Source: Citrus sinensis
Lineage: Eukaryota; Streptophyta; Magnoliopsida; Sapindales; Rutaceae
Reading direction: 5' to 3'
DNA: 64,000 nt
Assembly: GCF_022201045.2 (NCBI RefSeq)
Contig: NC_068558.1
Location: 3,811,501 to 3,875,500, forward strand
Positions 7,619 through 57,423 of the stretch are shown here, one piece after another. Position 1 is the first letter of the stretch; each line of letters starts with the position of its first letter. The notes beneath the pieces were generated by a model. That model had not been told where the DNA came from. It worked only from the letters and a program-made list of their open reading frames with translations, and ran no database searches. The position numbers and the translations under genes were made by a program.

Positions 7619-8800
7619 ACCATGGGACTTCCATCTCTTTTCCCACAATAAAAGCCAAAGGGGTTTCCAATTTCTTTGACGGCGGCTCAAAAAGACACAT
7701 TTGTGGCCCATTTGACAAGTACCCTAATTTCTTTAGGTTCTTAGGAATCAGCACATAAACCCATAATTCCCCCCAAAAAAAAAATTCTCAAACTGAGAAC
7801 AAATTGATCCCTTCTCCAACAATTTTCAAAGAAGATACAAATGCAGAGCTCGAGAGAGAAACATCCTATTGCCAAAGAACCAAAAAAACTGAAGTTTAAA
7901 ATGAACAAAATGAATAGCGAACTCGAGATAACAAATCTTCACTGTTTCGAAAGTCTGTTAGAAAAGAAAATTTTCATAAACAAGTGGAATCCAAAAGCAA
8001 GATACTTGTAAAATCCAAAGCACCGTTTTCTGTGTTTTTCCTGAAAAGCAAACTAAAGGTGTACATGCATCAACACAGAACTCGAACGCAGCTAAAATGC
8101 CAAGGTTAAGAATTTTTCACTTCTCTTTCACTAGTCTTCACAAAAGAACATTGGAACATTTTCGACACAACAAAAATACAGCCTTTAATAAGCCCAGTGT
8201 AAATGAATAATTCAAAGAACATAGCATTGACTTTTCCAGAAAGCAAGCCAAAGTTGTGTCCAGAACTCAAATGTAATTAGAATGCAGAATTGCATATCTC
8301 TATTCCTTCTACTTTATCAAAGGAATATCAATTATAAGAATAAGTCAGAGAAACAGATATTGTCTCTGCGCAAGCACCACAAATTCAACAACCCAACTGT
8401 AAGGAATCGTGCGGTGATATTGAATTTCAGATTTCCAACGGTGCCCAAATAAATAGTCGAATTAAAATTACAATGATGTTCTATAAAAATTAAAAAAAAA
8501 AATCATCATTTGCTGGGCAATTAAAAAACTATCGTCTGAAAATAAATGGAAAATTCGCAAAAAAAAAAGCCACAAAAAAAGCTAAAATTGTTTATATGTT
8601 TTGTTTTCACGCAATGCAAACCGAGGACCCACGTAACTAGGCAACATCAATTACAATATATAAAAAAATATAGATCAAACTCAAATTTCCAATCGAAATG
8701 CAGGATTAGGATCGAAATAAATATAACTGAAATAAGTAGAAGAAATTGTTAAAGCACAAAGACGAAAATCTAACAAGGAGAAGAGAAAAATAATTTTAAA

Positions 8801-50811: not shown

Positions 50812-53497
50812 ATGTATGTCTGATATTGATGCTTCTTTTTGTTTACTTCTTCGTTTGTTCGCCGAGAAAGAAAAAGAAAAGAAAAGAAAAGAAAGCACGC
50901 ATTCTCAGCTGTTTTAGTTTAACGCAGCTTGTAGTATTACTACTGTACGGATTGTATTAGGGTCAGTTATTCAGCAACGACGACGATTAGTTTTAAAAGT
51001 TAATTTTGATTTCAGGTCAAAAGAGGAAATTGCTAGGGAAGCTATAAAGCACGCTCTCAAGGCGTTACGGAAACGGCATTTAGTAGAAGAAGGCGCTCAT
51101 GCTCCCGCCATTATTGCTCTTTCAAGGCCGATCATTTCTCAGGTCTCCTATAATAAAAATAACATTTTGCTTTTCTCTAATTTCAATTCAATTATTGCTT
51201 AATTATGGATCTTTATTTTTATCATTGAATTTTGTTAATCTAGTTGGTTAAGTGTGTTTATGTGTGTGTCACTGTAGGGATCCGAATGGAAGGAGAAAGC
51301 GGATAATCTGGAAACAGAGCTTCAGCAATGTTACAAAGCTCAATCTAGGTTATCAGAGCAGCTTGTGGTTGAAGTAGCTGAGTCTAGATCTTCTAAAGCT
51401 TTATTGCAAGAGAAAGAATCACTGATTACTTCACTACAGGAAGAATTGACGCAGATAAGGTTTTGTATTTTTACTTTCCATTATGTTTTTTGTATGTTTG
51501 ATTGGTTGATGCTTGGGAGGTTAAATTAATTTTTAAGTATTCCAGGGATGAATGTTCTCAGTTGAAGACGGAATTGGAAGAAAAGATCAAGGCCTTGGAA
51601 TTAGTTGTGAGCGAGAACCAGCAAATCAGAGCACAGCTAGAAGAGATGACTATGAAAGCTAAAAATGCTGAAGCTGAAAATAAAATGTTAGTTGATAGAT
51701 GGATGTTGCAAAAGATGCAGGACGCTGAGCGGCTAAATGAGGTATTTGGTACTCTTGTATTTGTTGAACTGCGGACTTGGAATTTTGTAATGGCTCTGCT
51801 AAGGAGATTAGATACCTTAGATTTGGTGAGGAAAAATGTCATGTAATTGGTCTCTTAGCTGATATCTATAAGTTGCTTTAGTTTGGTGTATGGTTGGTCA
51901 TATTTGTGCATAAAAGACCTAGACAATATGTAGCATGCATGCTATTTTCACTACCAAACTTGCGAGCAAGATTTATACTGAACAGTCTTGAGTTGGATGT
52001 TACAGAGGAGATGGCTGTCTTTACTAGTGGCTGTCGTCTTGGCCTCCTTTTTATTTTACTTGACATGATTCTGAGGCCATCTTCTTTAATTTAATGAATA
52101 CAAGTTATTAGTAGCCAATAGAATTGCAAAGTAGTTTATGAATATTTGAGAAGCACAAAATATAGTTGGTGAAAAAATTCAAATGAGCAATAATGTCACT
52201 TAAAATGTTGATGCATCCTTTAGTGGCTGAATTTTGTACCTTGTTTTGAAAGTGATAGGATTTTCTATTAGCTTCTATCAGTCTTCATGTTAAATTTTGA
52301 TGCCTATGAAAGAATTGCGAAAGCATTGCTGTTTTAGAATTGGAGTTCAGAGTTTAATGAGAGTGGATTTTTCCCATTTATTCTGAAAGTGTGTAGATTT
52401 AAATTCATTATTTCCTTTTTTTTCTTAATGTGTTTTTCTTAATTTAACATGAATTCCTGTCACTTCTTTAGGCAAATGCACTTTATGAAGATATGATTGA
52501 TCGGCTCAAGGCCAGTGGGTTAGAGAAACTTGCTAAACAGCAGGTAGATGGTGTGGTTCGCCGAAGTGAAGAAGGTGCTGAGTTCTTTGCGGAGTCAACT
52601 GTTCCATCTACATGCAAACATAAGATCAATGCCCATGAAGGTGGCTGTGCATCCATATTGTTTGAATACAATTCTGCCAGATTGATTAGTGGTGGACAGG
52701 ACAAGTCAATTAAATTGTGGGATACAAACACTGGGTCATTAAGCAGTACCCTCTATGGTTGCCTTGGCTCAGTTCTTGATCTTGCTATTACCCATGATAA
52801 TAGATCTGTCATTGCTGCAAGTAGCTCAAACAACTTGTATGTTTGGGATGTCAACTCAGGGCGTGTCCGTCATACTCTCACAGGTCACACAGATAAAGTG
52901 TGTGCTGTAGATGTGAGCAAAATTTCAAGCCGGCATGTCGTAAGTGCAGCTTATGATCGTACTTTAAAAGTGTGGGATTTGCATAAAGGTTACTGTGTTA
53001 ACACAATCATTTTTCACAGCAACTGTAATGCTCTTGCCTTCAGTATGGATGGACAGACCATATTTTCTGGTCATATTGATGGGAATCTGCGTTTGTGGGA
53101 TATTCAAACAGGAAAGCTACTTAGTGAAGTTGCCGCACATTCACTTGCTGCAGTTACATCTATCTCTTTGTCGCGAAGTGGAAACATAATACTAACTAGC
53201 GGGCGAGACAACTTGCACAACTTATTTGATATACGGTCTTTAGAAGTTTGTGGCTCACTAAGAGCAACTGGAAACAGAGTGGCATCTAATTGGAGCCGAT
53301 CCTGCATAAGTCCGGATGAGAGCTATGTTGCTGCTGGCTCAGCTGATGGATCTGTATATATCTGGTCAATATCTAAAGCTGATATAGTGAGAACGTTGAA
53401 GGAGCACACAGCTCCCGTGCTGAGTTGTTCATGGAGTGGGCTTGGAAAACCTCTGGCCTCTGCTGACAAGAATGGAGTTGTTTGTGTTTGGACGTGA
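50812..53497 (+). CDS. ATG16: Autophagy-related protein 16 (ATG16)
   Basis: ATG16 binds ATG5-ATG12 and places this ligase on the growing autophagosome, where ATG8 is lipidated. Exons: 50812-50813 (coding part of exon 1), 51016-51142, 51278-51459, 51546-51741 and 52472-53497, giving 510 residues, matching the plant protein. The N-terminal part reads MSKEEIAREAIKHALKALRK with HLVEEGAHAPAIIALSRP, then a coiled coil from about 50 to 200 (KADNLETELQQCYKAQSRL, MLVDRWMLQKMQDAERLNEA). The C-terminal half, nearly all in one exon, is a WD40 propeller: ARLISGGQDKSIKLWDTN, NNLYVWDVNSGRVRHTLTGH, VVSAAYDRTLKVWDLHKG, GHIDGNLRLWDIQTG, and ending NGVVCVWT. The start codon seems split by intron 1: AT ends exon 1 and G begins exon 2. 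Confidence 0.92.
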
Positions 53498-53795: not shown

Positions 53796-54572
53796 GGGAA
53801 ATTTACACCAATAGCCATATAAATTTTGGCTTTTTCCATCTTAACCCCCCAAACAAATTTCTATCAACATTAGCTATAAAAAAACCTTTGAGACCAAAAT
53901 ACCCCTCTCTCTCATCTCTCCCTCAACACTCTCTTTCACCCATATCTTCCAAACCGAACAAACTCCCATCATCGGCGGTAACATCAGCCCTCGTCGGCGG
54001 CGGCTTCATCCTTCATCGGCGTCCGATCTACCATCTACAGTCTTCAACAAAATCTAGATTAGCTATTTTATTTATTTTCATTAATGCATAGTGGTATGAG
54101 TTATTTTCTGAACTTGCTCGAGAGTTTCAGTGAACTACAAGTCGTGGGTGAATCTGGCGACAGGTGCCTGTCGCACCAAGTTTTGATGCGACAGGTTCCC
54201 TGTCACGTGAAGTTTCGTGCGACAGGCAGACTGTCGCCAGATTCACCCACGACTTACAGTTCACTGAAACTCTCGAGCAAGTTCAGAAAATAACTCATAT
54301 CACTATGTGATGCCGATTAGTGTTAGATCTGGATAAATTATCATCGGATTTCACTTTTATCGTTGCCTTTTGTCGTCGCCGTTGGTTGATGATTCAAGAG
54401 TGAAAAGCTGCCTTTAGTTTGACAAAAGGGGAGAAAGAAAGTTGCTTTTGGTTTGTAAAGAAGGGTAATTTGGAGAGAAAAGCGTGTGTTTGGCTAATGT
54501 TAATAGAAAAAAATTGAGAGGATTAATTGTAAAAATAACAAAAATTTTATGGTTATTTTTGTAAATTTTTCA
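53796..54572. mobile_element. Fold-back element with central long hairpin
   Basis: The outer ends are inverted relatives (GGAAATTTACACCAATAGCC; reversed right end GAAAAATTTACAAAAATAACC), matching over about 80 bases and then diverging. Its centre is the 221-bp hairpin at 54087-54307. Terminal GGAAATTTAC resembles other fold-back elements here. No target duplication is clear. It starts about 300 bases after the ATG16 stop. Confidence 0.6.
54087..54307. repeat. Near-perfect 221-bp palindrome (hairpin)
   Basis: Arms of 77 bases (54087-54163 and 54231-54307) are reverse complements with three mismatches by my count. Inside, TGCCTGTCGCAC (54165-54176) pairs with GTGCGACAGGCA (54217-54228), and ACAGG TTC CCTGT forms the tip, centred on 54197. 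The whole stretch is therefore one symmetric palindrome with almost no loop. GCGACAG/CTGTCGC recurs six times or so. Confidence 0.9.

Positions 54573-56047: not shown

Positions 56048-57423
<1,376 letters not shown>

Follow-up and report, generated by a model that had tools for sequence, protein, structure and literature searches.

The closest described systems are found among plant Mutator-like elements (MULEs). In KI-MULEs (Kaonashi) and other ULP-bearing MULEs, a Mutator transposase is accompanied by an Ulp1-type peptidase domain in reverse orientation to mudrA and insertions show 9-bp duplications (PMC2528002, PMC13317346); KI-MULEs are non-TIR elements, and the accessible text of these two papers describes neither dyad arrays nor a palindromic derivative. 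The VANDAL elements of Arabidopsis have degenerate terminal inverted repeats (TIRs), carry short motifs (YAGTATTAY and AGTTGTCC/AGTTGTAC) tandemly repeated in their non-coding ends, and encode VANC proteins, in which DUF1985 is one of two marked domains and DUF287 the other (PMC5735166, PMC10398659). The latter paper, in its accessible part, describes one set of non-coding regions on which both RdDM and VANC act (PMC10398659). Mu killer of maize is an inverted duplication of MuDR sequence, about 4 kb long and situated near a gene, with the potential to form hairpin RNA through a proposed read-through from the flanking gene (PMC3440606). CitMule of clementine is a 6.9-kb MULE with 9-bp duplications, short degenerate TIRs and a FAR1/SWIM/MULE protein, and the word Kaonashi is absent from the main text of the paper describing it (PMC4334395). 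In Pack-MULEs, related copies hold unrelated DNA between shared ends. Among the papers listed in a literature search, judged by titles and the beginnings of abstracts and with most subscription journals lying outside it, none describes the MULE family presented here, which is weak evidence of novelty. Of the papers searched, a single one, on a mango genome, mentions DUF1985, transposon and citrus together.

The element under study lies in a 64,000-nt window of the Citrus sinensis genome, by which we mean the whole stretch of DNA analyzed. Alignment with sibling copies placed its limits at 53796..54571 (+ strand, 776 bp); the start given in the preliminary description was the same, whereas the end, given as 54572, had to be moved to 54571. 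The element begins with GGG at 53796 and finishes with TTC at 54569–54571, where most siblings have CCC and end in AAATTTCCC. It consists of a left TIR of about 113 bp (53796..53908, + strand), recognized by sequence comparison and by a left-end pattern search of the genome; a left subterminal segment (53909..54085, + strand), which is also matched up to 54085 in both coding relatives described below; an unstranded junction (54085..54087), at which the parental sequence TTTTCATTAAT is joined to an inverted arm; the palindrome itself; and, again delimited by sequence comparison, a right subterminal segment (54308..54458, + strand) and the right TIR (54459..54571, − strand). Upstream of the element, the reading frame at 52493..53497 (+ strand) had a generic WD-40 protein as its top match (2ymu_A, 2.2e-74), followed by two ATG16-1 chains (9h2q_B, 4.6e-60; 5nuv_A, 1e-51), which fits a putative ATG16-like WD40 gene. 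Its stop codon is 590 bp before the palindrome, in agreement with the earlier placement of the palindrome about 0.6 kb downstream of ATG16. Downstream of the element, the frame at 56048–56590 presumably encodes a protein resembling a papain-type cysteine protease, judging by eye.

Arm alignment and folding bore out the 221-bp palindrome as it had been described, with its 77-nt arms, three mismatches, further stem and three-base tip. The left arm (54087–54163, − strand), read as an inverted copy, and the right arm (54231–54307, + strand), read as the original, are 96% complementary and are separated by a 67-nt spacer. An extra stem is found within the centre (54165–54179/54214–54228), together with an alternative stem overlapping it (54167–54179/54183–54195). 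The RNA fold of 54080–54314, which closes on a three-base loop, had a free energy of −178.9 kcal/mol; 200 shuffles averaged −62.9 (sd 4.8), which gives z = −24.4, and none of them was as low. The repeated GCGACAG words noted earlier were also present: exact GCGACAG or CTGTCGC 7-mers occur at 54157, 54168, 54188, 54219 and 54231, all five in the tip region; elsewhere in the window there are just two. The hairpin tip (54157..54237, unstranded) is an array of 31-bp dyad repeats with CTGTCGC..GCGACAG units, whose length varies among copies roughly by one-unit steps.

A search of the same genome (about 300 Mb, 11 contigs) with the 221-bp palindrome gave 121 matches; the best 40 of 249 candidates were scored. 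Grouping the matches by hand gave at least 40 places, and the 39 places other than the window were taken with their flanks. The left-arm junction, with up to three mismatches allowed, was found at 13 places genome-wide, compared with 119 for the right-end pattern under the same rule. These 13 palindromic copies (the window copy, L012–L018, L021–L024 and L037) were all within the earlier set of 40 places, and in each of them TTTTCATTAAT or a variant of it meets the inverted arm at the same base; 12 of them keep both arms, while L037 is without most of its right arm. The arm is therefore not single-copy, a possibility that the preliminary description had left to a genome search. The same description had held that many dispersed, similarly palindromic copies, together with an absence of small RNAs, would point to an ordinary fold-back transposon; the first of these two features was found, at 13 places. 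Copies share the ends GGGAAATTTACACCAATAGCCATA ... TTTTATGGTTATTTTCGTAAATTTCCC, with variants, and the subfamily of 13 non-autonomous MULE copies has the ends GGGAAATTTACACC...AAATTTCCC. A degenerate left-end pattern matched the genome 71 times, and the same pattern read backwards did not match.

To characterize the insertions, we applied a strict test for target-site duplications directly outside the ends. A perfect 9-bp duplication was found in 23 of 33 elements, one mismatch in four and three or more mismatches in six; for the palindromic subset the corresponding figures were 8, 2 and 3 of 13, two of the eight perfect duplications (L021 and L022) representing one insertion. These two copies (C3:48.41 Mb and C3:49.76 Mb) share their near flanks as well as the duplication, indicating that one insertion was copied, probably by segmental duplication on C3. 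The test was run without L039 and L042, whose ends were mis-anchored, without the partial loci L052–L068, and without the loci whose left end was outside the stretch (L019, L020, L026, L029, L030, L036, L045, L048 and L049). No recognizable 9-bp duplication flanks the window copy (7/9 mismatches), and L014 and L017 likewise have no good duplication; since the window copy also ends in TTC instead of CCC, it is old or rearranged. Target-site duplications of the 9–11-bp size that characterizes MULEs are thus seen in the family but not at the window copy. Among the other loci, four elements of 2.2–2.4 kb (L032–L035) have identical right halves, perfect but different duplications and arrays of 324–445 bp, and apparently moved recently. 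A 142-aa frame in L033 suggested an F-box/LRR capture; this was abandoned, as neither of two frames had a Pfam match up to E = 0.1. Five consecutive right ends in one orientation lie beside the 7.2-kb coding relative at L020 (C1:7737033–7737952), two family elements lie right end to right end at L046 (C7:1166539–1169922) and form a natural large inverted pair, and in the L018 element (1713–2458) the right terminal repeat closes with some 36 nt of left-type sequence (GCCAAAATTTTTATGGCTATTGGTGTAAATTT), which suggests an exchange between the two ends of the element.

Two long relatives have the same ends as the window element: L051, of 8.1 kb, and L052, of about 7.2 kb, whose right end was read in L020. 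The domains detected were MULE (3.3e-18), SWIM (2.1e-7), C48 (3.8e-13) and DUF1985 (1.8e-9) in L051, and DBD_Tnp_Mut (1.4e-9), MULE (1.8e-6), SWIM (5.4e-8), C48 (4.2e-20) and DUF1985 (1e-12) in L052; both carry PF10551 and PF04434, and L052 carries PF03108 as well. In both relatives MULE and SWIM, with the MuDR DNA-binding domain in L052, are on the − strand, DUF1985 and Peptidase_C48 are on the + strand, and the frames for the transposase and for DUF1985/C48 are broken. L051 matched the window element at element positions 1–290 (89%) and 364–773 (91%); the two thus have in common 290 bp on the left, ending at the equivalent of 54085, and about 412 bp on the right, starting from 54159. L052 matched positions 1–290 at 93%. 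There is no inverted left arm in L051. When the right end of L051 was used as a query, 33 of the best 40 scored copies, the query included, continued without a break from the transposase side across the array and into the right end region.

The terminal inverted repeats are thus common to the window element and to transposase-coding relatives (L051, L052/L020). By sequence comparison, the window element is a non-autonomous MULE derivative, whose coding relatives encode a MuDR-type transposase on one strand and, on the other, DUF1985 with an Ulp1-type peptidase. The separate fold-back family envisaged earlier is not supported, as the ends of the element and the duplications of its family are of the MULE type. 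Foldback (FB) elements are defined by long inverted repeats of tandem units at the element termini, whereas here the tandem units are at the central tip, the palindrome is internal and the termini are MULE ends. As in KI-MULEs, the Ulp1-type domain is in reverse orientation to the transposase in L051 and L052, the window copy being non-coding; by contrast with the non-TIR KI-MULEs, the terminal repeats here are about 110 bp long and, left against right, 69–79% identical in BLAST segments across copies. As in VANDAL elements, a DUF1985 protein is encoded by the element, the TIRs are degenerate and a short motif is tandemly repeated in the non-coding ends (L051 542–606 and 7844–7925). The motif is nevertheless a different one, a CTGTCGCACC dyad, and the present family has a C48 domain, while DUF287 was not found in the L051 and L052 frames, scanned in pieces because the genes are broken. 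CitMule likewise has 9-bp duplications and short degenerate TIRs; by its published description (PMC4334395) it differs in its size and its FAR1/SWIM/MULE protein. Related copies hold unrelated DNA between shared ends, as Pack-MULEs do, but the window copy holds none.

The GCGACAG words are parts of a 31-bp unit that has a dyad of its own, CTGTCGCACC...GGTGCGACAG, and the array of such units is present at both non-coding ends of both coding relatives. L051 has six exact 7-mers, all in its two end clusters, against a Markov-1 mean of 0.31 and a maximum of 3 in 500 sequences: three are in the left cluster and precede an ATG (703) whose frame, by eye, is that of DUF1985; the other three are in the right cluster, at 7888–7925, on the stretch that separates the transposase frames from the right end. 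L052 has corresponding matches on both sides and one in between. The 13-mer CTGTCGCACCAAG occurs 623 times in the genome, whereas its reversed control does not occur. In a survey of elements defined by their left end alone, limited to C1 and C2, the contigs for which all 13-mer matches were listed, an exact 13-mer was found within 9 kb inward in 11 of 14 elements, compared with 0.6% of random stretches; the other three (L014, L016 and L031) have 4, 3 and 3 exact 7-mers in their loci. Folded as single-stranded DNA, the right and left arrays of L051 gave z values of −6.5 and −5.7, against −1.8, 0.3 and 0.8 for three other stretches of L051. The GCGACAG words, which had been taken for similar small-RNA phases, are better explained by this pre-existing array of the parent transposon. 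By analogy, the tip array resembles the target repeats of VANC anti-silencing proteins and might, as a further step, be a candidate binding site of the element-encoded DUF1985 (VANC-like) protein; if so, such binding would explain why derivatives keep and enlarge the array.

The preliminary description took the element to be an inverted-repeat transposon in which the outer arms are old and the centre is either younger or preserved. Comparison among copies supported strongly diverged outer arms and a younger centre, and spoke against preservation. Since the left and right terminal repeats are only 69–79% alike in copy after copy, their divergence is ancestral and was inherited from the parent. 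The consensus arms of 12 copies, by contrast, agree at 76 of 77 positions, and together with the one junction shared by 13 copies and the lack of an inverted left arm in L051 this indicates that the centre was made later; on these comparisons it is a later inverted duplication, apparently of the stretch before the transposase frames, and is younger rather than preserved. Measured against the consensus, the two arms had diverged by 3.5% and 3.4% and the segments next to them by 3.1% and 4.9%; the figure was 5.3% for either terminal repeat and 8.5% for the tip. The arms of the window copy differ at 3 of 77 positions, inside the range of 1 to 10 among copies. Judged from these values, the centre has decayed like the surrounding segments since its origin. 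C-to-T or G-to-A changes account for 263 of 385 substitutions overall, an excess that we take to be the ordinary decay of methylated plant DNA. The arm comparison and substitution counts were made without L037, whose right arm is lost; L021 was left out of the means, the permutation, the segment divergences and the substitution counts and kept in the arm consensus.

Taken together, these results make it probable that the palindrome forms the central part of a short MULE derivative that would have formed by fold-back within the array and spread with the help of transposase supplied in trans, and that it is mostly a by-product. During MULE gap repair, the nascent strand would copy the right end inward, fold back in the dyad-symmetric 31-bp array, use its own arm as template outward as far as the position equivalent to 54307, and then switch to the left subterminal segment at 54085. 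Such a product would retain both ends and could be mobilized by the transposase of other elements. From what is observed, namely the same ends, the 9-bp duplications in most copies, the coding relatives, the array and one founder junction in 13 copies, we infer the gap repair, the fold-back step, the trans-acting transposase and the single origin. The shared junction favours a single origin of the 13 copies, and the tree of right halves leaves the matter undecided: the palindromic copies do not form one clade (3 changes are needed, and one clade appeared in 0% of 200 bootstrap trees), but the palindromic label is clustered on that tree (shuffling gave 10.1 changes on average, and 0 of 500 shuffles were as low as the 3 observed), its starred branches force at most one change, and 17 of its 32 inner branches are open. 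The founder lineage showed no intermediate of the fold-back step. A deletion between head-to-head inserted copies could also have given a palindrome, with no template switching, and a right-end-to-right-end pair does exist (L046). This route, however, would need further precise deletions, because the left arm ends at the position equivalent to 54307 and there directly abuts the left subterminal segment at 54085, and by eye none of the 13 aligned elements has a second right terminal repeat; we regard it as very unlikely. It is also highly improbable that the likeness of the arms is maintained by arm-to-arm gene conversion. L014, L015 and L022 each have one change that is present in both of their arms, three in all, and the arm pairs of individual copies show 61 differences where permutation gives a mean of 64.7 (p = 0.06; 7.2% versus 7.7%, the latter being the mean between opposite arms of different copies), which leaves room for rare conversion; but the mean divergence within copies (7.2%) is not below that of the same arm between copies (6.6%), and with the observed excess of C-to-T and G-to-A changes some both-arm coincidences are expected.

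To analyze where rearranged copies join the family, we used an array-free query (54310–54568), because the presence of the array in the first query had biased the earlier junction sample; copies found in that way were left uncounted. Of the 40 copies scored, 18 had not been found before, and the inner side was read in 16 of them; the other two (C3:37319626 and C4:5717483) are contiguous in the comparison with the L051 right end. This query requires the right subterminal segment, and copies lacking that segment are missed. Six of the 16 copies read (L053, L054, L059, L060, L064 and L065) are contiguous with the coding interior, and the remaining 10, that is, all of the rearranged ones, have unrelated DNA joined at the array: similarity begins at L051 7827–7917, within the array (7844–7925) or no more than 17 nt away from it, and by eye the ten have eight distinct neighbouring sequences. 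L062 has a separate 14-nt inverted arm outside its own array; a 14-nt inverted arm match in L055 (93%) is far from that copy's array and was taken as chance. Three elements of 1.0–1.2 kb that the query misses in this way (L069–L071; C1:5201684, C3:18568258 and C5:36809752), picked from end patterns alone and retrieved after the 13-mer counts were known, have a shared unrelated interior and perfect 9-bp duplications. They contain 16, 9 and 21 exact 7-mers, and the array is joined directly to the right terminal region, the adjoining arm being gone. They look like part of an abundant subfamily, their left-end variant being common among the pattern matches. The junctions at the array and its presence in these three elements mean that the array is a site of breakage or template switching, that it is retained by selection, or both; since L069–L071 keep it without the adjoining arm, the junctions could come from selected retention and not from a breakage hotspot. 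On the left side, the window element has three copies of a CATCGGCG-type 12-mer at 53966–54021, with 22-nt spacing, and the left-hand similarity of ten rearranged relatives stops at 53972–54019, near these repeats; the left side may therefore have a junction site of its own.

Small-RNA functions offer two further readings. In the one resembling Mu killer, hairpin RNA from the palindrome, transcribed by read-through from ATG16 or from other copies, would yield siRNAs against the array and the pre-transposase stretch of coding MULEs. The strength of the fold would suit this reading, as would the homology of arms and tip to the part of L051 that runs from the transposase frames to the right end, with the array present again at the left end. 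Yet Mu killer duplicates transposase-gene sequence, which the window palindrome does not, and the latter is a non-coding hairpin of 221 bp, present in 13 copies. The arms are not preserved, and they have fewer C-to-T-type changes than the rest of the element in the CHH (17/407 versus 139/1786) and CHG (18/242 versus 24/209) contexts, which speaks against extra RdDM at the arms; a methylation signature specific to them was accordingly rejected, the CG context being slightly higher in the arms (9/132 versus 24/418). We therefore consider such a silencer unlikely. The preliminary description had proposed a young miRNA or siRNA gene under selection, to which the shape of the hairpin and its nearness to the ATG16-like gene would lend themselves; with twelve further copies elsewhere, and arms that diverge from their consensus as the neighbouring segments do, this is highly improbable. 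A search of Rfam up to E = 1 returned only mir-4524, on both strands, at 20.6 and 18.9 bits; the gathering score is 68, and we judged these matches to be chance. Six words of the hairpin (14–17 nt), searched in RNA letters (U) only, were absent from the main texts covered by the literature search.

By itself, then, a palindrome near ATG16 is ordinary transposon debris. The interest of the locus is in the anatomy that it reveals: a DUF1985/Ulp1 MULE family with dyad repeats at both non-coding ends, where the sampled rearrangements meet. By analogy with VANC, the CTGTCGCACC/GGTGCGACAG dyad may be regarded as a specific candidate motif of a VANC-like anti-silencing protein from a different plant lineage, and the array offers a testable account both of the sites at which MULE derivatives take up foreign DNA and of new transposon hairpins. 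A more far-reaching proposal, which we put forward as quite unlikely, is that the DUF1985 protein would bind the arrays as a VANC-like anti-silencing factor outside the Brassicaceae, that the arrays, by folding, would set the sites of transposon breakage and DNA uptake, and that in one founder the fold-back would have produced a hairpin giving the host siRNAs against the anti-silencing sites. If this were true, one repeat would serve escape, gene capture and host counter-attack.
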